DNA of 64,000 nt from Pseudomonas sp. SCA2728.1_7. Lineage in GTDB: Bacteria; Pseudomonadota; Gammaproteobacteria; Pseudomonadales; Pseudomonadaceae. Location: contig NZ_CP073104.1 in NCBI RefSeq assembly GCF_018138145.1, forward strand, positions 2,418,001 to 2,482,000. Reading direction: 5' to 3'. The notes under the pieces are model-generated. The model worked only from the letters and a program-made list of their open reading frames with translations. It searched no databases and was not told where the DNA came from. Every line of letters begins with the position of its first letter. Position 1 is the stretch's first letter. Of the stretch, positions 14,687 through 40,889 are shown one piece after another. The translations under genes were made by a program, and so were the position numbers.

Positions 14687-14716
14687 TGCGCACCTGTCAG
14701 ATCTGACAGGTGCGCA
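14687..14716. promoter_or_regulatory. 30-bp perfect palindrome, candidate operator
   Basis: Half-site TGCGCACCTGTCAGA followed directly by its exact reverse complement, with no central gap. It lies 52 bases before the short leader frame and 160 before the large Ig-repeat gene. There is no T-run on either side, which argues against a terminator, and the symmetry suits a dimeric DNA-binding protein. No regulator for it is adjacent. Confidence 0.5.
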
Positions 14717-14768
14717 AATCGATCTACACAGGTTCAATCACTCCATCAACCGACTGGAGTGCATTTCC

Positions 14769-14876
14769 ATGTTCGCCAACGCCCCCGAGCCTGAAAGCGC
14801 TCTGATCCTCACTGAGCCTGACTTCAGCGGTCGTCGCCACGCGACGCCTGAATTCCCTTCAAGAGGACTTGCCTGA
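14769..14876 (+). CDS. 35-residue leader peptide frame overlapping the next start codon
   Basis: ATG at 14769 preceded by TGGAG, 35 sense codons (starting MFANAPEPESALILTEPDF), and a stop whose last base is the A of the next ATG (TGATG). That arrangement is typical of translational coupling. The peptide has no hydrophobic stretch and resembles nothing I know. It could instead be chance; its coding status rests on the ribosome-binding site and the exact overlap. Confidence 0.45.
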   Translation: MFANAPEPESALILTEPDFSGRRHATPEFPSRGLA

Positions 14877-17800
14877 TGCCTTCTCACAAGAATTTCCGCT
14901 TCCCTGCCCTCACGGAAAGCAACGCAACACTGGCACTGCGTCCCCTGCTGATTCCAGGAATGCACGAGCCGGTGCAGGATGGCGATGGCGGTATCAATAT
15001 CCAGACCGCCACCAGCGACCCTAAAGGCTTGCAGTGTGTCATCAATCCTTATGGGCACCCCATGAGCGAGGGTGACAAACTCGAGATTTATTACGATACC
15101 GAAATTGTGCTCGAACGATGGGTGACGGCCGACGAGGTCAACCAACGGGTGTTCTTTTACCTACCGACGCCTGTCAAGTCTGGCTGGATTGAAAACTGCC
15201 ACTATGTGCTGACCCGCGTGGGCACAACTGTACCCGACCCGCCCTCGGCGGCCTTGCGGATATGGGTCAAGCTTGACAAGCCGGGAAATCGTGACAAAGA
15301 ACCGCATTTGCCCGATGGCCACTCAGAGCTGAACATCGTGCAACTGCCGCCCGAACTGGTCGAACAGGGCGTGATAGACGCCGAATGGGCCAAAAAAGGT
15401 GTGCTGGCCACAATCCCTCATTATGTGTTTTGCACGCGCAACGATCAGGTGCGTTTGCAGCTGGGCGACTACTGGCTTGCTGCGCACCGCATCACGCAAG
15501 CGCAAGCCGACGGCCAGCAACCGATCGAAATCCTCATTGATCAGGACGCCATTCTCGGCGCCGGAGACGGTCTCAAACGGGAAATCAAATTCTTCGCCAA
15601 TGACGAGGTCTGGAACTGGGCCGACCGCCACTCCAAACGCACCTACATCGACGTGGATGCGGGCGGCTGGCGCTTGGAGGCCCCCATCATCAAGGAAGCC
15701 GTCAACGGCGTCATTACCATCAGGAATTTGAACAAACTGCCGGTGAAGATCCAGATCCATGTCAACAGCCAGTACTTCGGCGTGGGCGACAGGGTGAAAA
15801 TGATCTTCATCGGCACGCCGCCGGATAACGGTGAGCCAATCATCTGCAGCGAATCCCGCGACATTGAAAACGTCCCCTCAGTGTTGGAAATCGAAGTGCC
15901 CTATGCGTTGATCAGGGCCATCGCCAGAGGTCGCGCCGATGCGTCGTATATCCTCTACAGAAAGGCCGGTGGCGACCCGCTGTCTTCCAAGCGCGCCTTT
16001 GCGGATGTAGACGGCGACGTCAACATCCTCCCCGAGCCGAGCATTCGAGAATTGATAGGCGATACCCTCGAACCGGACGAGCTTTACGCCACTGTCGAAG
16101 TGCGCTACGGCATGAAAAATGGCGACTTGATCTGTCTGAAATGGACCGGCATCAAGTCCAATGGCGATGACTATCTGCATGAAGTTCCGCATATCGTCAG
16201 CGCCAACGAAGCCAAGGAAGGCCTGGTCACGTTCTACATCGATGCCGAGCACATCATTGTGCTTGATAAAGGCAGGCTCGACGTTTCCTACGTGGTCGCG
16301 AACGATGCACCCGGCCTCCTCGACATCCGGGAATCCGAACGGCTGCTGGCCAAGGTCGAGAAGATCCGGGCGACGCTGCCCAAACCTGTCGTCGAGGAGG
16401 CCGATCCGCCGGGGGATGTACTGGACCCGTCGAAGGTGTTCGATATTGTCCATGTACTGATCGCCGCAGCGAAGACCCTCAAGGATGATGTACTGACTTA
16501 TTACTGGCGCAGTCTCAATCCTTTTGCCAGTACCAGCGACTGGCTGCCCATCACCACAGTAACTGCTGGTCAACCGGTAAGTTTTCGGGTGGATGCAGAG
16601 TTTGTGGCGAACAATATCGGTCAATACGTGAAAGTGCGCTACGTGTTATTGCGTGCCTCGAACAAACAGTACGAGTACTCGGACACGCTCAATTTGCTCA
16701 TAGGCGAACTCGTCGGCGAGTTGCCGCCGCCCGAGGTGGTACAGGCACCCGACAAGACGCTCAACCCAATGGATGGGTTGAATGGCGTAGACATCAACGC
16801 CAGTTACTCCAGCATGAACCCGGACCGGGACACGATCCGTTTAAAGTGGTTAGGAACGCCCGGCGCAGGCACCTCTGATGATCTGGAGTTGCCGGGCAGT
16901 CACACTGGCACCGTTCAATTCCATTTACCACCTTCGGTGGTTGGCGCCAATATTGCGAAAACGGTGTCGGTTGAATACGACGTAACCCGCTATACCCTCA
17001 CAACGCCCTCAAAAATGCTCGGCCTGTATGTTTCAGGCTTCCAGGACCCCGAAAACGAACTGCCCCACCCGCAAGTACCTCAGGCACAGAACAAAGTCCT
17101 GGATCTGATGACCTTCAGCGGCGATGCAAAAGCTGTCCTCGCTATTTGGCCCTACATTGCACTGAAACAGCGCCTTTGGTTCTACCTTATAGGACAAACA
17201 AGTTCAGGCGCGTCCCATACGATCCCGCTGATCAGCGGTGAGGAAATAACCCCGCCCCAAGTCAGCAGCGGACTCAACGAAAGCTTGCTCAGAAGCGAAC
17301 TGATGAAACTGGGCCACTCCACGCCCGCCAATGTGATTTGCAAAGTGGCATTCGATGGCAGTGAAAAGGAGAACACTGCCTGCGTATTCCCACAGCTGCC
17401 CTTGACCATCAGAACCCGCTACGACTACGTGCAACCGGTCATCACCGGTGTGACGGATTCACGGGGCGAGGTGGCAGAGGACGGCAAAACCCGCGATGAA
17501 AAGGTCACCGTCACCGGCACGGCCACCCGGGGCGAATCGGTCGAGCTGTTCGATAATGTGACGAAATCAATGGGCACCGCGCTGGTGGGAGCCGACAGTA
17601 TCTGGCGCCGCGAGATCGGTCCATTGACCGAGAAACCCTACAGCATCACCGCCAAGGCCCTGTATGACGCCGACCCGGTGTCCAGCCAGCCCAGAACGTT
17701 CACCGTCAAATTCGCCCAGACGCCGGAAATTCTCTCGGTTACTGACTCGCGAGGAACCGTCGCTGAAGGGGCGACCACCTATGACAACAGCGTCCTGGTG

Positions 17801-19399
17801 GCTGGCAGCGCGACGCCAAACCTGCAGATTCAGTTACAGGAGAATAATCAGCCAGGCCCAACCCTTGATGTCGATGACAAGGGCAACTGGAACCACCGCT
17901 TCAACAACCTCAAAGTGCAGCCCTACAGCATCGTTGCCAAGGCTTTATACGATATCGATCCCGCGCTGAGCCCGCCGCGAACATTCAACGTGGCACAAGC
18001 GGTTACGCCGACGATTTCCAGGGTCAGTGATATCCGCGGTGAAATCGCCCCCAATGGCACCACTTACTACCGAACCGTCACCCTGACGGGCAAGGCCAGT
18101 CCGAATGAAAAGATTATTCTGCGCAACGCGGACACGGCCATCGATACGATAGATGTCACCGACAGCGGCGATTGGCAATACGTTTTCAATAACCTGGGCC
18201 TGTCGACCACTTACCGCCTCACCGCGCTGGGCGACTATGGCAGCAATCCAGAGTCCAGCCCGCCCAGAGTCTTTTCTGTTGCAGCCTTTGTTTCACCGAC
18301 GATTACCACGGTCACAGACTCGGTCGGCGCGGTGGGGCCGAATGAAACGACTTATGACAACGCGGTCACCGTCAAAGGCGAAGCCACCCCGCGCGAGCAG
18401 ATCCAGATGTACAACAAAGGCACTGCCGTCGGTTCACCGGTCAACGTCAATGCCGATAAACAATGGACGGCGTCTGTCACTGGTTTGACGATCGGCGACC
18501 AAAGCCTCAAGGCCCGGGCCTTGTATGCCGCGGTTCCGGTGGAAAGCCCGGCGCGAGACTTCAAAGTCGCCGCGCACATCGCGCCGACGTTGACGTCTGT
18601 GCATGACGGCATCAGTGAAATCGGCAATGGCGGGCAAACCAAAAGCACTTCGGTAACCCTGCGCGGTATGGTCACCCCGAATCGTCAGGTCCAGATTTAC
18701 GACAACAACAGCCCAAGGCACACGGTGACTGCCGTGGGCAGCGCCTGGAACACTACCTTGTCGGTGGGTTTGGGCGGGCATTCGCTGAGAGTAAAAGCGT
18801 TGAGTACCGGGCAGGATTCAAATACGCGGACCTTCACTGTGATCTCGCCGATTCCGCCGTTGAATTTCAATACGGCCAGCGTGACATTGAGTGGCAGGTG
18901 TTACCTCATTACCAGCTGGGCTGCATATCCAAATTTTGGTCCAGGCACATATGTACAGCACACGGCAAACGGCGGCGTCCCCCCCTATCGTTACTCGTCG
19001 AGTAACAACAATGTCGCTGCAGTAGAAGTCAGTTCAGGGTTGGTGACTGTCAGAGGTAATGGGGTCGCAACGATCACTGTCACTGACAACGCAAGCCAGT
19101 CCAAGGGCTACAACGTTCATGTCACAGGGGTGAAATTCCTTGTGGGACTGGACGGTGGAAACTGGAACACGATCAGAGACAGGGCAGCAGCCCGAGGAAA
19201 GCGATTGCCGTCAATGGGTGAGTTGCGGGAAATCCATAACGCCTGGATTGGCCGTTGGCCGATGGAGAACTATTTGTACTGGGCCGCTGACTCCGCAGGT
19301 GGTTGGCCAGCTCGGTACTGGTTAAAAAATCTGGTCAATGGTGCAGAAGGGCACGTCCAGTACTACGGATCTGGCCTGGGAGTTGGCATTGACCCTTAG
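14876..19399 (+). CDS. Large Ig-like repeat protein with C-type-lectin-like end, no signal peptide
   Basis: 1507 residues. The N-terminus (MPSHKNFRFPALTE) is polar, with no secretion signal. Residues about 25-850 are a series of roughly 110-residue beta-rich modules with a recurring pattern (GD.I.L.W.G ... V.F.I ... VSVEYDV.R ... S..L.L.V). About 855-1320 holds five roughly 93-residue bacterial Ig-like repeats (ITGVTDSRGEVAEDGKT..., SVTDSRGTVAEGATT..., RVSDIRGEIAPNGTT..., TVTDSVGAVGPNETT..., SVHDGISEIGNGGQT...). Next comes a BIG2-like domain (about 1330-1415) and a last domain with RLPSMGELREIH...YLYWAAD...YW, like the C-type-lectin-like tip of invasins. The modular core resembles the two proteins coded at 21970-26068. 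Role unknown; surface adhesion or a secreted binding protein is possible. Confidence 0.85.
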   Translation: MPSHKNFRFPALTESNATLALRPLLIPGMHEPVQDGDGGINIQTATSDPKGLQCVINPYGHPMSEGDKLEIYYDTEIVLERWVTADEVNQRVFFYLPTPVKSGWIENCHYVLTRVGTTVPDPPSAALRIWVKLDKPGNRDKEPHLPDGHSELNIVQLPPELVEQGVIDAEWAKKGVLATIPHYVFCTRNDQVRLQLGDYWLAAHRITQAQADGQQPIEILIDQDAILGAGDGLKREIKFFANDEVWNWADRHSKRTYIDVDAGGWRLEAPIIKEAVNGVITIRNLNKLPVKIQIHVNSQYFGVGDRVKMIFIGTPPDNGEPIICSESRDIENVPSVLEIEVPYALIRAIARGRADASYILYRKAGGDPLSSKRAFADVDGDVNILPEPSIRELIGDTLEPDELYATVEVRYGMKNGDLICLKWTGIKSNGDDYLHEVPHIVSANEAKEGLVTFYIDAEHIIVLDKGRLDVSYVVANDAPGLLDIRESERLLAKVEKIRATLPKPVVEEADPPGDVLDPSKVFDIVHVLIAAAKTLKDDVLTYYWRSLNPFASTSDWLPITTVTAGQPVSFRVDAEFVANNIGQYVKVRYVLLRASNKQYEYSDTLNLLIGELVGELPPPEVVQAPDKTLNPMDGLNGVDINASYSSMNPDRDTIRLKWLGTPGAGTSDDLELPGSHTGTVQFHLPPSVVGANIAKTVSVEYDVTRYTLTTPSKMLGLYVSGFQDPENELPHPQVPQAQNKVLDLMTFSGDAKAVLAIWPYIALKQRLWFYLIGQTSSGASHTIPLISGEEITPPQVSSGLNESLLRSELMKLGHSTPANVICKVAFDGSEKENTACVFPQLPLTIRTRYDYVQPVITGVTDSRGEVAEDGKTRDEKVTVTGTATRGESVELFDNVTKSMGTALVGADSIWRREIGPLTEKPYSITAKALYDADPVSSQPRTFTVKFAQTPEILSVTDSRGTVAEGATTYDNSVLVAGSATPNLQIQLQENNQPGPTLDVDDKGNWNHRFNNLKVQPYSIVAKALYDIDPALSPPRTFNVAQAVTPTISRVSDIRGEIAPNGTTYYRTVTLTGKASPNEKIILRNADTAIDTIDVTDSGDWQYVFNNLGLSTTYRLTALGDYGSNPESSPPRVFSVAAFVSPTITTVTDSVGAVGPNETTYDNAVTVKGEATPREQIQMYNKGTAVGSPVNVNADKQWTASVTGLTIGDQSLKARALYAAVPVESPARDFKVAAHIAPTLTSVHDGISEIGNGGQTKSTSVTLRGMVTPNRQVQIYDNNSPRHTVTAVGSAWNTTLSVGLGGHSLRVKALSTGQDSNTRTFTVISPIPPLNFNTASVTLSGRCYLITSWAAYPNFGPGTYVQHTANGGVPPYRYSSSNNNVAAVEVSSGLVTVRGNGVATITVTDNASQSKGYNVHVTGVKFLVGLDGGNWNTIRDRAAARGKRLPSMGELREIHNAWIGRWPMENYLYWAADSAGGWPARYWLKNLVNGAEGHVQYYGSGLGVGIDP

Positions 19400-19408
19400 A
19401 AATGAAAA

Positions 19409-19431
19409 GCGCCTCACAAATCGTGAGGCGC
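19409..19431. terminator. Bidirectional hairpin terminator between convergent genes
   Basis: Nine-base stem GCGCCTCAC / GTGAGGCGC with a 5-base loop, 10 bases after the Ig-repeat gene stop. On the minus strand it is followed by TTTTCATTT, so it serves the autotransporter transcript well and the plus-strand gene less strongly. Confidence 0.8.
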
Positions 19432-19460
19432 ATTCATCAGGGAGCACCCTGATGGCTTTT

Positions 19461-21746
19461 TTACCAAAAGTACCGCAACCCCAGATTCACCCCGTAAGGC
19501 TGTTCAATATGCTTCCCCTTGGCATAATCCAGGTCGAAATGCATCTGCCACCGCTGGGACATCGCCACCGCCACCCCCGCACCAAACTCGGCCCGGGAAC
19601 CTGACAGGTCATTATTGAACACGTTGTTGTTGACCTTCACTTCGTTGTTCGACGCGAACTCATGCGCAACCGCCGCACGCACATAAGGCTGGGCGACAGC
19701 GCCGTTGGCGAGAGCGAAGTTACGTCCGAACGTCGCACCGGCCTTGCCGAGCAGTGAGCGCATACGATCACCGTCGGCGTCCATGTCGTTGTCCAGCGTG
19801 TAGTGTTTGCCCTGGATCTGCACGGCCGACAGTTGCGCGGACGGTTCGACGAAGTAGCCGTTCGCCAGTTTGATATGCCGACCGAACTCGGCGGAACCGC
19901 CTACACCCCAGTTGTCGTAATCACCTTTGGTGCGGCTGCCGTCGCTCAGGTTGACCTTGGACTCGTTGCGAAAGCGGTTGAACTTGAGCACGCCGTCAAA
20001 GTAATAACCGGTATCACTGTCGAGCCAGGTGACATAAGGCCCGACGTAGTAACTTTTCACCGTTCCCGACGTACCGCGATTGAGGTCCAGATCGGACTCG
20101 CTCGTGCCGGCGAGCACCCCGACCAGCACCTGGCTTTCGCCCACCCGGGCATCGGCGCCAAGGGACAAACCCTGTTGCGTCTGCTGATAACCCACGCCCG
20201 AGCCATCGGCAACGTTGTACTTGTTACCGTAGGTGCGGATCCAGCCGCCGGCCTGGCCACCGTTGAAACGCAATTCGCCCATGCGGCTGCGCAACGAACT
20301 CAACTCGCCGTACCACACGGTCGGGGCGGTGTTGAACAAGGCCAGTACCGAGCGCGCGCCGGGGCTGATGACTTCGGTGGTCGGGTCGAGAAACCACTCC
20401 TTCGCGCCTCCCTCGATTTCCCGACTGGCCAGGCCGTAGGACCATGTGCCGACATCCACTCTCTGATCGCCGGCCAGCGCAAAATTCGCTCCATCGGTTG
20501 TGCCAGTACGCACCAGCGTCAATTGCTGAGGCGACGCCGCATCCAGCCCCGAAGCCTGCACAGCGAGATCGAACTGCCCCTCTGATTGACCAAGGACATT
20601 GAGGAAATCCCTCTGCCCGCTGGCAAAATCACCTTTCATCTCAAACGTACCGGTACCGGCGAGTGAGCCGACCGTCAGTTCAAAGTACGTCGCGGGTGCC
20701 TGCGCTGCGCCGAAAATAACCCGACCGCCCTCCAGGCGCATTGCGCCAACGAAGTCATCGCCAGTCAGGGTCCAGTTTGAATTGTCATTGATGTTGACGC
20801 TGGCGACCTTGTCCAGGCGACCGGTGAATTGCGACTGGTTCTGCAGGGTGACGTTGGCCGTCGAGCCGTCCTCAACCAGCATGTCTCCGGTCATATGGCC
20901 TCGGTCGAAAATGAAATCAGCCGTGCTGGCACCCGTCACTGAAAAGTTGCCAATCAACGTACTATTGCCAACCTTTACAGCGGCGGTCGAAGCCTCTTGA
21001 ACCGCCAGCAATTGATTAGCGCTACCTTGCAAAGTGGAGTTGTTCAGCACCTCGATGATGACGTTTGCACCACCGGCAACCTCTATCGCCGGCCCATTGC
21101 GCCCCTCTACACTGGCACCGTCCAGTACCAGCGTATTGCTGCCTGAAACGGACGAGTCATTGACCATCCGCACACCCGCCCGGTCGCCGCTGATACGAGT
21201 ACCGTCTGTAGCGTGCACTTCACCGCCGATCATATTCAGGCCGACACTGCCCGCGGCCTGTCCCGTCACTTCACTGTCGATCAGTGTCAGGTTGCTTAAC
21301 GCGGTTATCTGTATCCCGGCTTCGCCCCCCCTGAATTGACTGTCAGTCGCGGTGACAGTCGACCCTTGCGTCGAAGAGAAAGACCGATTGACCATCATTG
21401 CTATCGAGTCGCTGGTGACATCGGCCTGCACAAGATTGCCTCGACTGGCCGTGATGGAAATCCCCTCAATGCCACTTTCAGCATTCACCGTGGCGCCATT
21501 GATGTTCAGCGTCGATCCGGAAATCACATTCAGGGTATGAGTCATGGCCTGGGCAAGATTCAGTACTCCGTTATTGCGCACCAGGTAATCAGTGGGCGGC
21601 ACTGTCGAGTCCACATCCAGCGTACTGTTATCGACGATGACCGCGAACGCAGGTGACCCCAACATAAAAAATGCCGGTATCGCTACCAGCATTCGAAAGC
21701 TTCCGCTGGAAGCGATTCTGCAGAATGAAAAGACTTCAGGTTTCAT
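19461..21746 (-). CDS. Type Va autotransporter with pertactin-like passenger
   Basis: 761 residues. Extended signal peptide (1-35, ending SPAFA), then a passenger of short parallel-beta repeats rich in N, S, T and G (about 36-440, such as NSTLQGSANQLLAV and GNSTLIGNFSV). A pertactin-type junction follows (FFDPTTEV-like WFLDPTTEVISPGARSVLALFNTAPTVWYGEL), and a C-terminal autotransporter barrel (about 490-761) ends GVNLGLRYFW with the terminal aromatic residue. No protease triad is visible, so an adhesin-like passenger is more likely. It has its own promoter region, since a terminator precedes it at 21921-21949. Confidence 0.92.
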   Translation of the reverse strand: MKPEVFSFCRIASSGSFRMLVAIPAFFMLGSPAFAVIVDNSTLDVDSTVPPTDYLVRNNGVLNLAQAMTHTLNVISGSTLNINGATVNAESGIEGISITASRGNLVQADVTSDSIAMMVNRSFSSTQGSTVTATDSQFRGGEAGIQITALSNLTLIDSEVTGQAAGSVGLNMIGGEVHATDGTRISGDRAGVRMVNDSSVSGSNTLVLDGASVEGRNGPAIEVAGGANVIIEVLNNSTLQGSANQLLAVQEASTAAVKVGNSTLIGNFSVTGASTADFIFDRGHMTGDMLVEDGSTANVTLQNQSQFTGRLDKVASVNINDNSNWTLTGDDFVGAMRLEGGRVIFGAAQAPATYFELTVGSLAGTGTFEMKGDFASGQRDFLNVLGQSEGQFDLAVQASGLDAASPQQLTLVRTGTTDGANFALAGDQRVDVGTWSYGLASREIEGGAKEWFLDPTTEVISPGARSVLALFNTAPTVWYGELSSLRSRMGELRFNGGQAGGWIRTYGNKYNVADGSGVGYQQTQQGLSLGADARVGESQVLVGVLAGTSESDLDLNRGTSGTVKSYYVGPYVTWLDSDTGYYFDGVLKFNRFRNESKVNLSDGSRTKGDYDNWGVGGSAEFGRHIKLANGYFVEPSAQLSAVQIQGKHYTLDNDMDADGDRMRSLLGKAGATFGRNFALANGAVAQPYVRAAVAHEFASNNEVKVNNNVFNNDLSGSRAEFGAGVAVAMSQRWQMHFDLDYAKGKHIEQPYGVNLGLRYFW

Positions 21747-21920
21747 GATTGACTATCCTTCGATTAATTAACTCCGGCAAATTTGTTTACCCGCCAGACA
21801 ATTCAGCGTCGAACGATACCGATTGCCACAACCGAACCAACGTAGGATTTTTCTGAAGTTCACAGGGTAAAAGTCCTTAAAAAAATAGTAACCATTTCCA
21901 CTGGCTACTCGTTACATATT

Positions 21921-21949
21921 TAAAAAGGAAGGTACATGCAGTACCTTCC
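21921..21949 (-). terminator. Rho-independent terminator
   Basis: On the minus strand, GGAAGGTAC-TGCAT-GTACCTTCC followed by TTTTTA, just past the stop of the 643-residue Ig-like gene. It separates that gene from the autotransporter behind it. Between 21747 and 21920 lies an A/T-rich stretch that should hold the autotransporter promoter. Confidence 0.85.
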
Positions 21950-21969
21950 CTTGCGACTTCAGCACCTTC

Positions 21970-23901
21970 TTAAGGCAGGGGGCATGAACCACCCGCCGGA
22001 TCAACCATATAAACCCTTACCACATGTTCTGCAGATGATGTGTCGCGCCCATTAATAACAGCCGAGTAGCGTATGCCTCCCCACGCGTTTTCCGTGGTCA
22101 GGATCGCCGGATCATAGGGAATCTTTACAATGAACCCGGCGGTTGCTTCCTGACTGGAGGGGGTGTAGGGAACTTTGGCTTCGGTACCGGGTTTAGTTGT
22201 GCTTCCGTTGTCACTGTAGCCTTGATAAGTGAACGTCAATTCCTGATCTGCCAATTGAGGCTCGCCCCCCGCGACCAACACTTCGACTACAACGCCAGCG
22301 ACGCTATCCCTTCGCAAAGACAAGCAATTCAGCAAGCCGAAGTCGTCATCGAGGTGTTGGAACTTCACCTCCGGGATGACATCTGGACGAATAAGTACGT
22401 CAACATCGGTCGCCGTCGAAACATCCACGTTATCGTTTACATCGTGGCTGATTACATAATGGGCCTTGATCGGATTACCGTTACCTGCATCCTCGAAAAC
22501 CCTCCATAGAACAGTCCATTCCAATTCGGCTGGAGGCGTAGCACCGATTTTTACAATCCCGCCGTCTGCCTCGCTTACCGGCTCACCTTTCCAGTAAAGT
22601 TGTACTTCGTCATTCTCCTTGGCCCCGGTATAGATCGTTGCCGTTACAATTACCGGGCCGCTGTTATCAGCCTCCCTCAACTGATTGGCAGCCCCGCCAG
22701 CGTCGCCTTGTACTGACACTGTTGGCAGATCGGGGTTAGGGTTGCCTGGCTTGTCGGGATCTATTGGCGCGCCTGGCTTGCGCAAATCCACGCTAATGTT
22801 GTCCAGCTCGACCGGAACAAGAGGATGAGCGACATCCTTGCGCAGTATCTGATAACTGGCTTTAACAGTCTTCAGGCCGGCATTGCCGTTGAGGACATCG
22901 CGGAAGGGCACATCGACATAAAAAGGAAACCCGGCAATCGTGGTAGCCGGCTGTAACCGGCCATCCCAAGTGACTTGCAACTTATCGCCCTGAATGAAGT
23001 TGGTGTATTCAGCTTTAATCCCGACGCCAATCGGCTCCTGAGCATCCGCCAGATCAATCAGGTTGTCGATATTCAGGGGAATATCCAGCGGCTGCAAATC
23101 TGCTGGTGGATCTGTCAGCGTGACCTTCAAGCGTTTATAAGGTGAATGAAGGCTTTTATTGCCCTTGCGATCCGTCACCTGCCAATAAATAGCCCTTTCT
23201 CCCTCTTCATCGTCCAGCATTGCCGCGGTCAGTTGAAATTCCAGAGGCGTAGCCAGATCCGTACGCGTAATGGATCCAATCCGCGTCGGCAAAGGCACGG
23301 AAGTGCCAATAAAACATTCAAGAAAATCATCGAGCATGTGGCCGGCATATTCCTCAATAGTTATCAGCACATGACCATTATCGTCGAGATATTTTTTAGT
23401 GATACCGTCACGCTCTACTTCGGGTGGAACAATGACCTCTGTTATCGGCAGCGGCGCAGTTCTGTCAACATTAATCTCAACGGGTGTTACGACAGCGATG
23501 TTCCCGCCTTGATTGAGGTAGTAGCTCAATTCATGTTCACCCGGTTTGTCGGTCAGGTTGGCCGGCAGCGTCATAGGGATCAAGAGAATGCCAGGGTCAA
23601 GAGGCGTGCTGTAGCTATATCGCGTTTCTGGCAACCTCTTGCCATCGAACATCAGATCAATAAGCCCCGACACGGAGGGCGTATCACCTGCTTGTTTAGG
23701 CCGAGGCACATTCACTTTCAATACCAAGCCCTGTAATGAAAGCGGAACCTGATTCTTGCCATCACCGACTTGATTCGGCAGCAAGGGATTATCAGGGTGT
23801 ATTTGAAGGGGCTCTGCATCCATCTGCGGGGCTGCATGGCGGATTCTCTTGTAATCCAGTCGACTTTGCTGTGCAGAGGTGAGTTTTTTATAAACGGTCA
23901 T
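21970..23901 (-). CDS. Ig-like repeat protein B, no signal peptide
   Basis: 643 residues from the ATG at 23901, which has AGGAG at good spacing; the frame stays open 20 codons further upstream. N-terminus MTVYKKLTSAQQSRLDYKRI is charged and polar. Repeated beta-rich modules follow: VDRTAPLPITEV, YLDDNGHVLITIEEYAGHMLDD, RAIYWQVTDRKGN, GDKLQVTWDGR, DEVQLYWKGEPV. The last part has LTFTYQGYSDNG and ends MVDPAGGSCPLP. It is a paralogue of protein A upstream (shared VDR.AP, YL...G.V...I..Y.G, and R.IY......D..GN), and shares GD.L...W.G modules with the 1507-residue protein. GC content looks lower than in neighbouring core genes. No function known. Confidence 0.85.
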   Translation of the reverse strand: MTVYKKLTSAQQSRLDYKRIRHAAPQMDAEPLQIHPDNPLLPNQVGDGKNQVPLSLQGLVLKVNVPRPKQAGDTPSVSGLIDLMFDGKRLPETRYSYSTPLDPGILLIPMTLPANLTDKPGEHELSYYLNQGGNIAVVTPVEINVDRTAPLPITEVIVPPEVERDGITKKYLDDNGHVLITIEEYAGHMLDDFLECFIGTSVPLPTRIGSITRTDLATPLEFQLTAAMLDDEEGERAIYWQVTDRKGNKSLHSPYKRLKVTLTDPPADLQPLDIPLNIDNLIDLADAQEPIGVGIKAEYTNFIQGDKLQVTWDGRLQPATTIAGFPFYVDVPFRDVLNGNAGLKTVKASYQILRKDVAHPLVPVELDNISVDLRKPGAPIDPDKPGNPNPDLPTVSVQGDAGGAANQLREADNSGPVIVTATIYTGAKENDEVQLYWKGEPVSEADGGIVKIGATPPAELEWTVLWRVFEDAGNGNPIKAHYVISHDVNDNVDVSTATDVDVLIRPDVIPEVKFQHLDDDFGLLNCLSLRRDSVAGVVVEVLVAGGEPQLADQELTFTYQGYSDNGSTTKPGTEAKVPYTPSSQEATAGFIVKIPYDPAILTTENAWGGIRYSAVINGRDTSSAEHVVRVYMVDPAGGSCPLP

Positions 23902-24031
23902 TTTATCGCTCCTGGAGAGGACGCCCACGCATACGCAACCACGCAGGCATACGTTTGGCACTGGTTAAACTTCTTGTCACTGAAAGGCATTACTTGAGTC
24001 AGACACGAGAAACGTGAAATTCAGGAACTGC

Positions 24032-26068
24032 TTATTTCAACAAGCCTGGCAACTTCGCAGACAAGTGTTCTGCAAACTTTTTACCCCATCCGGAATTCTC
24101 GCAGGGCGAACCGCAGTAATCCTCGCCCTCTTTATCGGAGCAGACAATACCGCTGGGCAGGGTTCTATTAATAATGACGAATTCCTCTTTTGAACTGCCC
24201 ACGCCGCCCTTGGCTTTCTTAAGTGTGTAATGACACAGTGCAGAGCCGTCATCCACCATAGGGGCAATCAAACGTTCAAAGTCCGCGACATGCACTTCAA
24301 AACCATCACGCGCTTGCGCGTCACTCAATATCGTGGGGAACTTGTCTGTCACTCCGGGAATAGGTTCAGAACCATTCAGTCCTTTACATCCTTGCCAATT
24401 CAGAGTCACTTCATCATCTTTGTCGAAGGCGGCATTCCCCTCGATTTTCACCCAGACCCCTTTCCACAGTCGCGGACATGCACAACAGTCAAGAACACCA
24501 TTTTTGTTCGCATGCGGAAAGGATGGCTCCTTCAGGTTTTCGATCACCACAATCGATACATTGACTGATGTTGTCAGAGCCTGTTGCAGATTGACGTTGT
24601 TGCTGGTCGTGTAATAGACCGGTAATGCAGGGTTCTCCCGGTCCTGGTCAATGATCGGCCAAGGAATGGTGAACGGCACGCGCTTACCGGCTACATCACC
24701 GGGCTGGACGATATATTGTGCTGCAGGGGTGGCGTTTGCTCCCCAGAGCAGGCTGATGGTCTGCCCGGCAAGTGGCCCATCAAACAGCTCGAGAATCCCT
24801 TCGGCAGGCTCGCCAAAATCATCCGACGTCAGCGTGTTGAGGCGTTTCGAATTGACGCCGTATATTTCTACTTTTGCCAGATCAGGGTTGAGTAATGCCG
24901 GGGCATTGGCGTGGTCCTGCCCTGCGAGGGTCAGATCCACGGGGACCCGGGTTCCCAGAGAAGGTTGTGTGGTGCCTGAAGGACGTCGCACTTTGTAAGT
25001 CACCGACGCCGTCAAAGGCCCCAGCCCCTTAGCTGTCAGGGCTGACCAAAGCACTCGCACGACCACGGGAAAGCGGGAAGGATCAACCGGCACCGGCGCT
25101 AGCGGTGTGCCATTCCAGTCGAGCAGAATTTCGTTGTCACTACCTGGATTGTCATAACGATCGATTTCTACCGTCACGGCTCCCTGAGCCACCGCACCTT
25201 CACGGGCATGCTGGCGGTCAATCAACCCTCGGTCCGACAACGGCACGCGAGGCGGTTTGAGATTTCCGGGCGCCGGGAGCAGATCGACGAACAATTCCAA
25301 CAGTTCTGATCTGGGGCCTTTATTGCCCGCCCAGTCTCGTAGACGGTAATAGATATAGCGGGACCCTTCACCCCGATCACGAATGTCCTGTTCGCGCATG
25401 GTGATAAACAGTTCATTACGGTCAATGTCTATCTGACTGAATTCCTGTTCATCAATCTCGGTTTCCGAATCGGAAGGTTTATCCGTATCGGTCCAGAAAT
25501 AAATGGCTCTGTCCCGGGCTTTTATCCCCACATAACTGCGCACTTGAAAACGAACCTGCCCATGTTCCTTCAAGTAGTCGTCGGTGATAGCGCCGACGAC
25601 ATCGAGCATTTCCAGCAAGGCGGGTTCCTGACCATCATCCGGGGCCACCCTGTCCACGGTAATACGTTTTTTAGCGGACTCAGCAGGGTTGCCCCCCTGG
25701 ATCAGGATGTAAGACAGGTCGTAGATGCCATTGTCCAGATAGTTCCTGGGGACTGATACATACTTGTCCCCAGGTTCGATGGGAAAAGGGAACTTAAATT
25801 CATTGACTTCGCGAAAGGCATCCCCAAGCGGGCGAAATCCCACTTTGACAATATCCGGCCCGAGAACAGGATCGGTTGTGAAGCTCCACGCTGGAACAAT
25901 CAACTGCAGATCACGGTTCAACTCCGTACGCGGCAACAGCCCGTCGGGACTTTCTGCACCGTGTTCGTCCTTGAGAATGACCGGCACTTGCGGAACCGGC
26001 AAAGCGGTGACTCCTGATGGTTGCGGATTTGCACTGTGCGGGCCTTGTGTGTGTTCCGAGGGCTGCAT
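24032..26068 (-). CDS. Ig-like repeat protein A, no signal peptide
   Basis: 678 residues from the ATG at 26068, preceded by CGGAGCGTCCTCC; an in-frame ATG 23 codons upstream lacks a site. Proline-rich polar start, then modules as in protein B: ITVDRVAPDDGQEPALLE, DDYLKEHGQVRFQVRSYVGIKARDRAIYFW, YIYYRLRDWAGNKGPRSELLELFVD, NEILLDWNGTPL, DEVTLNWQGC. It is cysteine-rich near the end (LDCCACPRLW, CSDKEGEDYCGSPCENSGW) and closes with an amphipathic helix (KKFAEHLSAKLPGLLK). The gap of 130 bases to protein B has no terminator, so the two are probably one transcript. Function unknown. Confidence 0.85.
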   Translation of the reverse strand: MQPSEHTQGPHSANPQPSGVTALPVPQVPVILKDEHGAESPDGLLPRTELNRDLQLIVPAWSFTTDPVLGPDIVKVGFRPLGDAFREVNEFKFPFPIEPGDKYVSVPRNYLDNGIYDLSYILIQGGNPAESAKKRITVDRVAPDDGQEPALLEMLDVVGAITDDYLKEHGQVRFQVRSYVGIKARDRAIYFWTDTDKPSDSETEIDEQEFSQIDIDRNELFITMREQDIRDRGEGSRYIYYRLRDWAGNKGPRSELLELFVDLLPAPGNLKPPRVPLSDRGLIDRQHAREGAVAQGAVTVEIDRYDNPGSDNEILLDWNGTPLAPVPVDPSRFPVVVRVLWSALTAKGLGPLTASVTYKVRRPSGTTQPSLGTRVPVDLTLAGQDHANAPALLNPDLAKVEIYGVNSKRLNTLTSDDFGEPAEGILELFDGPLAGQTISLLWGANATPAAQYIVQPGDVAGKRVPFTIPWPIIDQDRENPALPVYYTTSNNVNLQQALTTSVNVSIVVIENLKEPSFPHANKNGVLDCCACPRLWKGVWVKIEGNAAFDKDDEVTLNWQGCKGLNGSEPIPGVTDKFPTILSDAQARDGFEVHVADFERLIAPMVDDGSALCHYTLKKAKGGVGSSKEEFVIINRTLPSGIVCSDKEGEDYCGSPCENSGWGKKFAEHLSAKLPGLLK

Positions 26069-26105
26069 GGAGGACGCTCCGCGACAATTAACCAAACGTT
26101 GGTGT

Positions 26106-26129
26106 GCGGTATCAACAGGGTGATACCGC
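26106..26129. promoter_or_regulatory. Inverted repeat upstream of Ig-like protein A
   Basis: GCGGTATCA - 6 bases - TGATACCGC (9 of 9 paired), 38 bases before the start of protein A. A weaker one, GGTTGAT - 9 - ATCAACC, lies at 26324-26346. The 26069-26370 stretch has no gene and is the probable promoter region. The repeat could be an operator or a messenger hairpin. Confidence 0.4.
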
Positions 26130-26370
26130 CGCTGCATGGGTTCGATTTAATGCGCAAAGGCGGGCGCTGCCTACTGTCAGAAATTACAGGTTTTGCTACC
26201 GTTCGTCGGAATCAATGCTCGTACGCAGGGGGCTTAATCATGTGCGTTTATCAAAAACGTGCAGGCAAAAAATCGAGCTACACGATCTCGCGTCATCGCC
26301 TACAGCTACGCCAGAATCCGCCGGGTTGATACAGGTGTGATCAACCGCTGAGTTATTCGGAGTCAGATCC

Positions 26371-26445
26371 GGCGCTTCGCGAGCAGGCTCGCTCCCACGG
26401 TTAACCGCGCTCCAATGTGGGAGTGAGCCTGCTCGCGAAAGCGCC
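26371..26445. repeat. Paired REP palindrome (GAGCCTGCTCGCGAA family, mixed arms)
   Basis: GGCGCTTCGCGAGCAGG... and its inverted partner ending AAAGCGCC. One arm has the GGGAGCGAGCC form and the other GGGAGTGAGCC, so two REP subfamilies meet in one pair. It lies between the adhesin terminator and the protein A promoter. Confidence 0.85.
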
Positions 26446-26530: not shown

Positions 26531-29500
26531 TTACACCGTATCCACCTTCAACGAATGATCATTCAACATGCCGCTGATGATCGTCGCCGTGTCATGCCCG
26601 CCAGCCACCACCCCGCCCGCCCCCGGCGTCACGCCGTAATGGCTGGCCAGATTGACGCCGGCCAGATCAATCGTCTGGTTCGGCGTTGCGCCGGCCATGG
26701 CGCTGACGTCGATGCTGGTGAGCACCGAAGCGCCACTGCCGCTGACAGTGAAGTGCAGGTAGTCATCCAGCGACGCCGTGGTGCCGTTCTCGCCCTGCAG
26801 CAGTTGCGACAGGTCGAGTTTGTCAGTGCCGGGGGTGAAGTCGGTGATCAGGTCGTGGCCGCTGTTGCCCTTGAGCCACTGGAAGGTGTCGGCCCCTGAA
26901 CCACCGGTCAGAGTGTTGTTGCCCATACCGCCAATCAGCAGGTCATCACCGCCGCCACCGTTGAGGATGTCGTTACCGAGACCGCCGTTGATCACGTTGT
27001 TATTGTTGTCGCCGGTCAGGGTGTCGTTGAAGTTCGAGCCGACGAGGTTTTCGATGCCGGTCAGGGTGTCCGTCCCCGCGCCGATCGTGTTTTGCGCACC
27101 GAGCAGACCGAGGTTGACCGTGACCCCGGCGGTCGCATGGGCGTAGCTGGCGGTGTCGCTGCCAGTACCGCCGTCGAGCAGGTCATTGCCCGGGCCGCTG
27201 TAAAGCAAGTCGTTACCGGCGCCGCCGTGCAGCTCGTTATTGCCAGAGCCTGCGCTGAGCACATCGTTGCCGTCGCCGGCGTTGATGATGTTGTCGCCAG
27301 TGCCGGCCACCAGCACGTCATCCCCCGAGGTGCCGGTAAGGGTGTGGCCGTCCTGATAGCTGATGGACACGTTGGCGGTGTCGCTGCCGCCATGGTTGTC
27401 GTTGGCGGTGTAAGTGCCGTGGAAATCCGGGGTGACATCGTGGGCCCCGGCGTAGTTGACCGTCATGGTCAGTTGGTAGTTTTCTGCCGCGTTGGGGTTA
27501 CCGCCGCCGTTGGGGTTGCTGATGTTGGTGACGTGGATCTGGTAGGTGCCATCGGCGCTGGCAGTGATCGTGCCGCCATCGGCAATCGCGACGAACGCGC
27601 CACCGTTGAGCGAGTACTCCAGAGTGATGTGCCCGGCTGCCAGGTTGTGATCCAGGTTCAGCGTTTCGCCCTGTTTCAGTTTGACCGTGATCAGGTCTTC
27701 ATCATTGGCATTGGCGTTGGTCACCGCGCCGAGGTAGCCGCTGATCACCAGCACGGCGGTCATCGCTGCGGTGTTGGCGGCGAACGCATTGCGCACATCG
27801 GCCAGGGTCTGGTTGGCGGCGGTGTTGTTGTTGCCGTTGAACGTGATCGCGCCGGTGCCGGTGAAGTCCGCGCCCTTCGCTATCCAACCAGTATTGAAGG
27901 TGGTCGGTGTGGCGTTGAGCGTATCGCCATTCGGATCGGTGTCGTTGGCCAGCAGCAGTTCGCCCGGCACCACGATATTGCCCGACAGCACGTTGGTGAT
28001 GACGTGATCGTCGACTGCCACGGGTGGCGCGTTGGGGATCACTTTCACGGTCAGCGTCGAACTGGCGAGGTCGCCGTCGTTGTCGCTGACGGTGAAGCCG
28101 ATGTTCTCGGTGATGACCACGGCGGTGGTTTTCTGCGAGGTGTAGGTGTAGTCGCCGCTGTCGAGGTTGATCAGCAATGTGCCGCCATTATTGGTGGCGA
28201 TGCTCAAGGTGTTGTTGGCGGTGTTGAAGGTGCCGTGATTGGCGCCGCCGCTTGGGGTCAACGAGCCTTGGCCGCTGAGGGCTTTTGGATCGTAGGTGTA
28301 GGTGGTGCCGTCGACCACGATGGACTTGATGAAACCGCCATCGGCGCCAAAGGTGCCGCCCTCGCCCAGCAACGAACCGGTGACCGGCGCGCCCTGCACG
28401 GTGCCCGACAGCACCGAGTTGAGCTGGTTGAGATCGGTGACCACCACCGCGTTGGTGTTGGTGTGGCTGATGCCGTCATACGCCAGCGGGTCGAGGTTGG
28501 CGTTGCTCACGCCGCTGCCCAGGCCAATCGCGTAATTCTTGATGTTGTTGGCATCAAGGAAGGCTTTTAACGTTGCTTCATCGGCGGTGCCGATATCGCC
28601 CTCGTTGGGTTTGCCGTCGGAGAAGAAGTAGCCGACGTTCTGCGCCCCGGTGAGTTTGCCCGAGGTGTTGAACGCGTTGTACATGGTCGCCACGGCAGCG
28701 TCGTAATTGGTGCCACCGCCTGCGGTGAGGCCGGCCAGCAGGGTCTTGGCCGTGGCCACATCGACCCACACCGTCGTCCGGTCGGTGGCGTTGCTGCTGA
28801 AGGTGACGAGCTGCACTTTGACATCGCCGAGGTCATCGTACTTGTCGAGCAAGGCGCTGATGGCCTGCTTGGCCAGCGCCAGTCGCGACAGACCCGGCAC
28901 GCCGGAGGCGTCGGCCATACTGCCGGAAATATCGAGGACGATAAGGATGTTGGAATCGATCTCCACCGCCGCCACCGAACGATCCGACGCCACCGCTTTT
29001 GGCACGTCGTCGACGATGTTGACCACGAGGGTGCTGGTAGTGCTGTTGCCCAGCGCGTCAGTGGCTTGGTAAGTGAAGCTTTCGCTCAGAGTGTTCGCCC
29101 CGTCGTTGGCGCTCGGCGAGGTTTTCGGCGCCGAGGTCAGCGTGTAGGTGTAGGTGCCGTCGGCGTTGAGCTGGATCTGCCCGTAGGTGCCGGTGGCGCT
29201 GCCGACCAGGGTGTAGGTGATCGCGCCTGTGCCGCCAGTGACCGCGCCGACCAGCGTGCCGGTGGCGGTTTCGCCGGTGTTGCTCGGGTCGCTGCCGGTG
29301 ACCGTACCGGGGGCCAGATCCGCGCCGTCCTTGCTCAGGTCGAGGGCTTTTTCATAGACCGTGACGTCTTGATCGACCGAGGCCAGCAGTTTGCTGTCGG
29401 CGACGTTGATGGTGATGGTCGTGGTGCTTTCATCACCGTCGCTGTCGCGAATCGTATAGGTGAAAGTGTCGGTGGCGCCCGGTGGGCTCACCGAGTTCGG

Positions 29501-32500
29501 GTTGCTGTGATAGACGGCGTTGCCCGCCGCGTCGAGGGTCAGGTAACCGAAGTTGCCATTGATGTTGCTGTTGAGGCCGCCGATGGCTGAAGTGCCGGTG
29601 TTGCTGCCGGCGCGCACGCCGATCACTGTGGCCGCGCCATCGGCACCGCTGATGTCATTGCCCAGGACGCTGACGTTGACCGTACCGCCCTCGGCCACCG
29701 AGCCGGTGTCGGGTTTGGCAGTCGGCAAGTCATCGATGATGTTGACGTTGATCTGACCGTTGGCAGTGCTGCCATCGGTGTCCGTGGCCACGACGTTGAA
29801 GTTCTCGGTGAGGCTGTTGGCACCGTTGGCGTTCGGGTGAGTTTCGTTGTCGACCAGGGTGTAGCTGTAGCTGACGACGCCGGTTGCCGGGTTGTAACCG
29901 GTGATGGTGAAGGTGCTGCCCAGCGGCGAAACCACCGATTGCGGGAAGCCTGCGGCGACGCCATTAGTGACCACGGCAATGCCACCGACGGTGAGGGTTT
30001 GCAGACCATCGAGCGCAGTGACGGTGAAGGTGCCGCTTTGGGTCAGCGCCGGGTTGTTGGGGCTGGTGCCGTCGCTGAGGTTTTTCTCGTAAACGGTGAG
30101 TTCGCCGCCATTGACGTCGAGACCGTTGAGCAGCACCGGATCGTCGTTGTTGTGGATGTTCAGCACCAGGTTGGCGGTGCTGGTGTCGCCGTCGGCATCG
30201 GTCAGGGTGTAGGTGAACGTCTCGGTGCCGTTACCGCCGCCGTGCAGGTTTTTGAAGTCGGCATCGTTGGGGTTCAGCGTGTAGGTGTACGTGCCGTTGG
30301 CGTTGAGCACCAGCGTGCCGTAAGTACCGGTGAAGGTGCCGGCGGTGATCGGCCCGGCATTCGGTCCGGTCGCGACCACATCAGCGCCTTGCACATCGTT
30401 GGTCAGCACGTTGCCGGTCAGGGTCAGCTGGGTTTCCGAGCCGCTGTTGGCGTTGCTGTCGTTCACGGCTTTTGGCACGTCATCGACGATGCTGACGACG
30501 ATGCTGCTGGTGACGATGTTGCCCAGTGAATCAGTGGCCTGATAGGTAAAGGTTTCGGTCAGAGTGTTGGCGCCGTCGTCGGCATGCGGCGTGGTGCTCG
30601 CCGGCGAGGTCAGCGTGTAGGTGTACGTGCCGTTGGGGTTGAGGACAATCTGCCCGTAGTTGCCGGTGGCGCTGCCGACCAGTGCATAGCTGATCGCGCC
30701 GACCGCGCCGGTGACCGAGCCGACCAGCGTGCCGGACGCGGTTTCGCCGGTGTTGGTCGGGTCGCTGCCAGTGACTGTACCGGGAGCCAGATCCGCGCCG
30801 TCCTTGGTCAGGTCGAGGGCTTTCTCGAAGACGGTGACGTCGGTGTCGCTGGTCGCGCACAGCTTGCTGTTGGCGACATCGATGGTGATGGTGGTGGTGC
30901 TTTCATCACCGTCGGCATCGCGCACGGTGTAGGTGAACACATCCACTGCACCCGGGCCGTTCACGACGTTGGGATTGCTGTGGTAGACGGCGTTGCCGTT
31001 GGCGTCCAGGGTCAGGTAGCCGTAGGTGCCGTTGATGTTGCTGTTGAGGCCGCCGATGGCCGAGGTCGAGGTATCGGAGCCGGCGCGCACGCCGACCACC
31101 GCGCCGGTTACGGCCGGACCATCAGCGCCACCGATGTCGTTGTTCAGGACATTGCCACTGACCGTGCCGCCCTCCGCCACCGATGCGGCGTCAGGGTGGG
31201 CGCTCGGCAAATCATCGACGATGTTGACGTTGATCTGGCCGCTGGCGGTGCTGCCATCGGTGTCGGTGGCGACGACGTTGAAGTTCTCGGTGATGCTGTT
31301 GGCGCCGTCGGCGTTTGGATGGGTTTCGTTGTCGACCAACGTGTAGCTGTAACTGACCACGCCGGTCGCCGGGTTGTAACCGGTGATGGTCAACGTGCTG
31401 CCGAGTGGCGTGACGATCGATTGCGGGAAGCCTGCGGCCACGCCACCAGTCACCACGCTGATACCGCCCACGGTCAGGGTTTGCAAGCCATCGAGCGCGG
31501 TGACGGTGAAGGTGCCGCTCTGGGTCAGCGCCGGGGTGTCGGGGCTGGTGCCGTCACTGAGGTTTTTCTCGTAGACCGTCAGTTCGCCGCCATTGACGTC
31601 GAGGCCGTTGAGATAGACCTGATCGTCGTTGTTATGGATCTGCAGAACCAGATTCGCCGTGCTGGTATCACCATCCGAATCGGTGATGGTGTAGGCGAAG
31701 GTTTCCGTGCCATTGCCGCCGCCGTGCAGGTTTTTGAAGTCGGCGTCGTTGGTGTTCAGCGTGTAGGTGTAAGTGCCGTTGGCGTTGAGCACCAAGGTGC
31801 CGTAAGTCCCGGTGAATGTGCCGGCGGTGATCGGCCCGGCACTTTCATTGGTCACCACGCGGTCGGCGCCCTGCACGTCGTTGGTCAGCACGTTGCCGGT
31901 CAGTGTCAGTTGCGTTTCAGACGCCGTGCCATTGCTGTCATCCACGGCTTTGGGCAAGTCGTCGACGATGTTCACATCGAGGGTGCCGTTAGCGGTGGTG
32001 CCGTTGTCATCGACTACGGTGACGGCGAACTGCTCAGGCAGATTGTTCGCGCCGTTGGCGGTTGGATGCGCTTCGTTGTCGACCAGGGTGTAGCTGTAGC
32101 TGACCACGCCCGTGGTGGCGTTGAAACCGGTGATGGTCAGTGTGCTGCCCAATGGAGTGGTGACCGATTGTGGAAAACCTGCTGCTACGCCATTAGTGAC
32201 GACGGCGATGCCGCCGACGGTCAGGGTCGTCACGCCATCGAGTGCGGTGATGGTAAACGTGCCGCTCTGAGTCAGCGCGGTGGAATCCGCTGCGCTGCCG
32301 TCGCTGAGGTTTTTTTCGTAAACGGTGAGTTCGCCGCCATTCACGTCGAGGCCGTTGATGATCACCGGATCGTCGTTGTTGTGAATCTGCAGCACCAGAT
32401 TCGCCGTGCTGGTATCACCGTCGGAATCGGTGATGGTGTAGGCGAAGGTTTCCGTGCCATTGCCGCCGCCGTGCAGGTTTTTGAAGTCGGCGTCGTTGGT

Positions 32501-36655: not shown

Positions 36656-37187
36656 GTGAAATCCTCCGCTGCCGACCACCGTCGGCACTGGTAAGCGAAG
36701 CAGCCCATGGCTCAATCGGGTTGTTGGAGGCGACGCTCGCACCTTCAACAGTTCGTTTCGCAGGTAGCTTCTTTCGGAAACATCAGTGCTATCAAGCACT
36801 TCCGCATCCTGATCAAAGCAATACGCCCACTAACGCTACGTAACGGTGGTGAATCACTCGAGTGACAAAAAACTGTCGCTCGTCAGCCGCTACGCGTCCC
36901 TCCCCTTCAGCAGTACTTCGCCGTATGTCGCAAAGTGAGTGGAACTTTCCTCAAGCCTTTTTGCGCTCCCTAAAGCGCATAAAACAAAGGCTTTCATGCT
37001 GAACAATGTGCCGGTTTTTGCAAAGCGCATAAGTTTTTTTCGGCATAAGCCTTATGAAAATTTTTTCTTAGCTACGCTTCAGGATGTTCTTAGCTCTGTT
37101 GTTACAAGAGTGAAACGCTTGCACCTAAAAATATCGTCAAATATTTGGCGACAGTAACACACCATCAGGACTCAGGGAGATGCACCC
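36656..37187. promoter_or_regulatory. Divergent promoter region of adhesin and secretion genes
   Basis: 532 bases with no convincing gene. The half nearest the TolC-like gene is very A/T-rich (36930-37150), unlike its surroundings, and probably holds promoters for both directions. A FleQ-like inverted repeat is listed separately. The distance from the adhesin start to the A/T-rich part implies an untranslated leader of some 200 or more bases on the adhesin messenger. Confidence 0.6.
37135..37150. promoter_or_regulatory. FleQ-box-like inverted repeat
   Basis: CGTCAAATATTTGGCG, close to the GTCAATAAATTGAC type of FleQ site known from P. aeruginosa and from lap promoters, with one mismatch per arm. 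It lies 38 bases before the TolC-like start. FleQ with c-di-GMP controls many adhesin operons, so the site fits the context but is unproven. Confidence 0.35.
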
Positions 37188-38546: not shown

Positions 38547-38556
38547 CCAACTCCCT

Positions 38557-38640
38557 GTAGGAGCTGCCGCAGGCTGCGATCTTTTGACGTTGTTTTTTAC
38601 GATCAAGATCAAAAGATCGCAGCCTGCGGCAGCTCCTACA
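38557..38640. repeat. Long inverted repeat (GGAGCTGCCGCAGGCTGCGATC family)
   Basis: Two perfect arms of about 33 bases with a T-rich loop, placed between the TolC-like gene and the ABC gene. Inside an operon such a hairpin could lower the amount of downstream messenger or protect the upstream one. Confidence 0.88.
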
Positions 38641-38719
38641 CGTGATTGGGGTGATAGACGATCAAGCGTTCCGTTCAGTTTTATGTAGCCAGTGCCACCG
38701 TTTCACGGGAGCGATCAAT

Positions 38720-40879: not shown

Positions 40880-40889
40880 GAGTTGCCCC

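Follow-up and report, generated by a model that had tools for sequence, protein, structure and literature searches.

How would large immunoglobulin (Ig)-like proteins that carry no secretion signal come to be encoded beside a classical autotransporter, and where would they act? The question is raised by a 64,000-nucleotide stretch of the Pseudomonas sp. SCA2728.1_7 genome (contig NZ_CP073104.1, positions 2,418,001 to 2,482,000; hereafter the window, to whose first letter the coordinates below refer). A BIG gene, named for its 1507-amino-acid (aa) type of protein, lies there on the plus strand, and three minus-strand genes run convergently to it. Two of these encode members of a family that we call AB (643 and 678/701 aa) and one encodes a 761-aa autotransporter (AT). 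A first-pass annotation, made from the sequence alone, had reported proteins of these sizes on these strands, and the open reading frames of 1507, 643 and 678 (or 701) aa together with the autotransporter bear it out.

Here we report that AB genes and the autotransporter are linked across Pseudomonas. This linkage to signal-less, adhesin-like Ig strings suggests an undescribed surface-adhesion module. In about two thirds of the Pseudomonas genomes sampled, a known secretion device is accompanied by large proteins that resemble adhesins yet lack a signal. If the unit is real, either an exit route has so far gone unrecognised in a well-studied genus or the Ig strings serve the autotransporter inside the cell; either would be surprising.

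Results and discussion

AB genes and the autotransporter are found together across Pseudomonas

Among 99 Pseudomonas genomes, 73 have AB matches and 67 have BIG matches. An AT of the P0004 type lies within 6 kb in 82 of the 88 AB clusters among the matches listed. Six clusters lack one: a remnant in this genome, the G030 cluster at a contig end, the fragmentary cluster of G070, and those of G038, G055 and G088; an AT fragment near the G055 cluster was left uncounted. Seen from the autotransporter, using 115 of 144 hits, AB is nearby for 55 of the 56 hits that score 500 bits or more; the figures are 72 of 79 at a threshold of 400 bits and 78 of 89 at 300. The 29 omitted hits are extra pieces of listed frames, or short or weak, and include one (G055:C56) that would add a linked cluster. 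Both AB and an AT hit of at least 300 bits occur in 65 of the 99 genomes. The present genome holds 11 autotransporter barrels in 6.78 Mb, so that proximity of AB and AT by chance would be a few percent.

Hand-picked AB loci, mostly strong hits, have the AT in 38 of 40 cases, the exceptions being a contig end (L109) and L134. A second set of 46 Pseudomonas loci, which overlaps the 99 genomes and is therefore not an independent count, has it in 45 (the miss is an 8.9-kb contig); the flanks fetched for 22 of the 46 contain a BIG-type gene. Outside AB loci the closest AT clade is almost absent. The AT is thus a core member of the cluster and BIG, which has an intimin-like tip, an optional one. The first-pass annotation had rightly placed three Ig genes around a classical autotransporter, but the latter is no mere bystander. 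Nor are the genes always scattered, an outcome which that annotation had set against its idea of a system: two AB-type genes and the AT stand together in nearly every genome that has them.

A profile of AB found one of 369 gammaproteobacterial genomes drawn from 272 genera, namely the present one, and the first 620 residues of BIG gave the same result in the same genomes. All 46 loci of the second set are titled Pseudomonas, that of Pseudomonas koreensis DSM 16610 (L159) among them. The module is found so far only in this genus.

The autotransporter itself (19461-21746, minus strand) is of the classical type Va by its families, with a passenger of the Pertactin family (PF03212, 6.9e-25), a C-terminal barrel (PF03797, 8.4e-51) and an overall match to TIGR01414 (1.4e-88). 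A putative Sec signal, FRMLVAIPAFFMLGSPAFA, is visible by reading, although the strict rule-based test described below misses it.

The modules seem to be inherited as units

Among 51 loci the commonest gene orders are AB>AB>AT> (18 loci) and AB>AT>ab> (16 loci), ab being a short AB form of about 490-515 aa. Gaps between same-strand genes measure 300 bases or less in 77 of 89 cases. Five position types can be told apart by the flanking genes that loci share, including a LapA type (the window and loci L084-L087) and a chaperone-usher/RHS type. Of 41 typed loci, 39 share their position type with the locus of the nearest AT relative, and likewise for AB; distances between ATs and between AB proteins correlate (r 0.737 over 1275 pairs), with none of 1000 permutations as high. 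For these reasons each module seems to be passed down as one unit. Such a correlation would also arise from shared descent alone, and the stronger argument is that differing positions retain one same set of AB and AT. Elsewhere in the present genome, at about 1033.7 kb (L080, 8667-9398), lies a 243-aa AB remnant without an AT. Its position carries several full modules in other species, an apparent loss of the module as a unit.

BIG contains an AB-like block

AB protein 1 (24032-26068, minus strand) is a 678-aa string of Ig/FN3 domains that starts with ATG at 26068, has no signal peptide and carries an invariant cysteine pair framing its last domain. The frame continues without a stop to a further start at 26137 (24032-26137, 701 aa); database relatives use the start at 26068. 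AB protein 2 (21970-23901, minus strand, 643 aa) is likewise an Ig/FN3 string, with cysteines at 526 and 640, and is a paralogue of AB protein 1 (27% identity, E 6e-30). Between AB protein 2 and the AT, a terminator-like minus-strand hairpin (21927-21949) has a 9-bp stem followed by TTTTT. It is absent from the list of matches to the terminator consensus; a further and weaker element, at 21909-21887, does match that consensus. The AB pair had been proposed as one transcript closed by a terminator; the element after the pair is there, as a terminator-like hairpin with five T.

BIG (14876-19399, plus strand) gave nothing significant by BLASTP against either AB protein of the window. By profile comparison, its residues 47-554 align collinearly with an AB protein (probability 97, E 8e-11, 468 columns). 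Because of this collinearity, BIG can be read as a lengthened AB-like block. The block spans about residues 47-554 and is followed by further Ig modules, by Big repeats at about 850-1330 and by an intimin-type tip of Ig and C-type lectin-like domains at about 1235-1506. The tip, in which the lectin-like domain follows the Ig domains, superposes in its predicted fold on intimin (1f00).

The shared modules that had been proposed for the three proteins are thus supported by BLASTP within the AB pair and by profile for BIG. The sequence motif that had served as their basis did not hold: GD.[IL].L.W.G, thought to be common to all three, matches exactly once in BIG and not at all in the AB pair, with a looser form occurring two, two and one times in the three. 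We dropped it as a family marker; it is the profile comparison, not the motif, that relates the three.

No Pfam or NCBIfam family matches AB, and a search of PDB sequences with the 701-aa protein found no match. For BIG, the same two collections give Big_3_5, Big_2, Blp2 and intimin below their cut-offs and Cna_B slightly above; BIG is not a Blp2 protein (NF040520, 53.2 bits against a cut-off of 750). PF26918 and PF26182, listed for relatives, are absent from the Pfam scans made here. The Ig-like nature of the proteins is nonetheless supported by their predicted folds, and SiiE is among the structural matches to the module proteins. HemolysinCabind is not matched in the three Ig proteins by Pfam and is matched in the neighbouring LapA-like adhesin, in agreement with the earlier view that RTX repeats are missing from the former and present in the latter. 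The AB proteins are acidic (isoelectric point, pI, 4.6-4.9). Residues 1-20 of the AB model fall below 50 in predicted local distance difference test (pLDDT) score; a second look at this model covered chiefly residues 17-380.

AB proteins and, less certainly, BIG lack a signal peptide

The upstream frames leave little room for an overlooked signal. Open frame extends 8 codons beyond the called start of BIG, 21 beyond that of the 643-aa protein and 3 beyond that of the 701-aa form; 8 and 3 codons are too few for a signal peptide. Only in the 643-aa gene is an alternative conceivable, since the 21 codons would permit a GTG start with a Cys-rich stretch; AGGAG lies seven bases before its ATG. Ribosome sites are plausible at the called starts, and polar residues follow them. 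The first-pass reading that a Sec signal is missing is borne out by these starts, short frames and ribosome sites.

A strict rule-based test, allowing any in-frame start within the first 70 codons, was applied to the proteins of the loci. It was positive for 7 of 106 AB, 7 of 34 BIG, 36 of 51 AT and 146 of 372 other genes, and hence misses about three in ten autotransporters. Two of the AB positives, the window's 643-aa protein and a close relative of it in L084, arise through the GTG start. A laxer rule applied to database relatives was positive for 2 of 118 AB and 53 of 120 BIG proteins, the latter mostly at a conserved first strand resembling LALRPLLIPGM. Such positives could mean that wrong starts or an atypical signal have hidden a signal peptide. 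However, upstream stops leave scant or zero room, the laxer rule finds almost no AB protein, and the LALRPLLIPGM stretch contains Arg and Pro and sits inside the first module. We consider an overlooked signal very unlikely, and we call AB signal-less with confidence and BIG with somewhat less.

Where do the Ig strings act?

The first-pass annotation had left three options: a novel export route, the cytoplasm, or action after lysis. We favour a location outside the cell, because of the intimin-type tip of BIG, the autotransporter partner and the cysteine pair framing the last AB domain. Among long AB proteins this pair is spaced 95-135 residues apart in 72 of 83 and 30-45 in nine more, which suggests a putative disulfide.

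Our tentative proposal is an extracellular adhesion module whose Ig strings exit independently of Sec or by lysis. The AT would display its beta-helix passenger at the cell surface through the Sec and type Va route, while the two AB strings, encoded by neighbouring genes and devoid of an N-terminal signal, would leave independently of Sec or through lysis of the cell. Once outside, AB would act jointly with the AT and would most probably dock to it or to the surrounding matrix. In the many genomes that have BIG, this larger protein, AB-like in its N-terminal block and with a lectin-like tip of the intimin type, may add target binding. A bolder version, in which the AT serves as outer-membrane docking or exit partner for signal-less Ig strings exported in trans, so that an intimin-like fibre would be built from separate polypeptides unlike any of the numbered secretion types, strikes us as improbable.

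Several observations weigh against an extracellular module. By upstream frames and rule-based tests, AB and BIG have no signal peptide, and no dedicated export gene was seen in the loci beyond the AT; the type I secretion system (T1SS)-like genes of the LapA neighbour occur in that position type only. Of the 115 AT hits used, 31 are not near AB, two of these (G050:C5 and G094:C2) lying within 3 kb of a BIG match. The cysteine pair is found in only 4 of 22 short AB proteins, and 2 of the 83 long ones have neither spacing; just 8 of 38 BIG proteins have a cysteine in the last 45 residues, and the tip of the 1507-aa protein has a single one (position 1342). Finally, Ig/FN3 strings occur intracellularly too: for the model of the BIG C-terminus, Foldseek ranks a muscle thick filament first.

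One alternative is a cytoplasmic role, in which AB proteins would be accessory factors that hold the passenger before export or modify it. Cytoplasmic glycosyltransferase genes adjoin some autotransporters, and both the missing signal peptide and the tight, mostly same-strand linkage to a single AT clade would fit. However, long acidic Ig/FN3 strings with a kept cysteine pair and no family match are unlike chaperones or transferases, and the homologous block belongs to a protein, BIG, with an intimin-type tip; we regard this role as unlikely. It is also doubtful, to a greater degree, that AB and BIG are cargo of a known machine that needs no such signal, for example flagellar type III export or the type VI secretion system (T6SS). 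The polar, low-confidence N-terminus of AB would suit such cargo, and one BIG paralogue of this genome (L078) adjoins flhA. An FlhA-family match is found in all 99 genomes, 98 of them above the cut-off, but being ubiquitous it is uninformative. TssB (PF05591) is found in 87 of the 99, the other 12 being draft genomes except where there is one contig, and three of these 12 keep AB near the AT: G045 clearly (two AB matches, AT 540 bits), and more weakly G043 (one AB match) and G087 (one short AB match, AT 242 bits). T6SS is therefore probably dispensable for AB. That AB and AT genes merely share adhesin hotspots and act separately would agree with the LapA-like adhesin, chaperone-usher and RHS genes that flank some positions, and with the presence of the BIG type in fewer than half of the 46 loci. 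Positions with differing flanks nevertheless retain the same AB and AT set, and the restriction of the closest AT clade also argues against coincidence, which makes separate action decidedly unlikely.

Relation to known systems

The C-terminal Ig domains of BIG, capped by a C-type lectin-like domain, resemble those of intimin and invasin, the inverse autotransporters of type Ve. Unlike these, BIG has no signal peptide, given its polar start and eight upstream codons, and no N-terminal barrel: no barrel family of Pfam or NCBIfam matches it, and its N-terminal half shares homology with the Ig block of AB. The nearby barrel is part of another protein, of type Va, which has a passenger of its own. 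Barrel-less invasin-like adhesins are already known. InvL of Acinetobacter baumannii is such a protein, reaching the surface by other means; it has a lipoprotein signal and uses a type II secretion system (T2SS), whereas BIG is signal-less (PMC9245377).

The AT shares PF03212 and PF03797 with pertactin-type classical autotransporters and differs in being tied by gene order to signal-less Ig-string proteins. LapA/SiiE-type T1SS adhesins are likewise giant Ig strings, but the RTX repeats were not found in the three Ig proteins. The new element is thus the set of signal-less Ig strings linked to an autotransporter. Among the titles and abstracts listed from the open-licence literature we found no such case (the phrase 'Ig-like domain repeat protein' occurs once in PMC8407307), and the conserved cluster stands, as first suspected, as a candidate undescribed system.

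Neighbouring genes and related loci

Two terminator-like hairpins, one per strand and both consensus matches, separate the convergent BIG and AT genes (19409-19455). On its other side the module adjoins a LapA-like adhesin of 3422 aa with Big_9, cadherin-like, VWA and RTX domains in the family scan (26531-36799, minus strand), and three genes (37188-42251, plus strand) that by position resemble a T1SS for it. The adhesin also stands beside the AB module in four relatives (L084-L087).

A second module type (L088-L091, in G037, G044, G006 and G079) combines three AB genes with a giant protein that shares the Ig modules; in three of its four loci a gene for a 241-aa half-block is called as well. 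The giant protein of L088, the sole one scanned, carries DUF4329; those of L090 and L091 have an intimin-like tip. BIG-type proteins with an RCC1-like propeller after the Ig modules occur in L093 (7768-12279) and L095 (353-5452). Neither RCC1 nor DUF4329 in relatives yielded a shared function. In one position type (L097, L101, L104, L106, L107, L118, L123, L125 and L131) the module is bordered by a large RHS-type protein; that of L104 (1652 aa, the only one scanned) matches PF05593 and by reading has no obvious signal peptide.

The paralogue beside flhA (L078, 7854-11633, at about 2320.9 kb of this genome) has an intimin-like tip and lies with three DUF6124 genes; further genes around it are presumably flagellar. 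DUF6124 adjoins several large Ig genes and was considered as a dedicated small partner. We rejected it, as only four or five of its 36 copies here lie by Ig genes or fragments; none of the open-licence papers searched mentions the name. Inverted repeats surround GGGAGCGAGCCTGCTCGCGAAGCG at 26380-26440 and resemble a Pseudomonas repetitive extragenic palindromic (REP) element.
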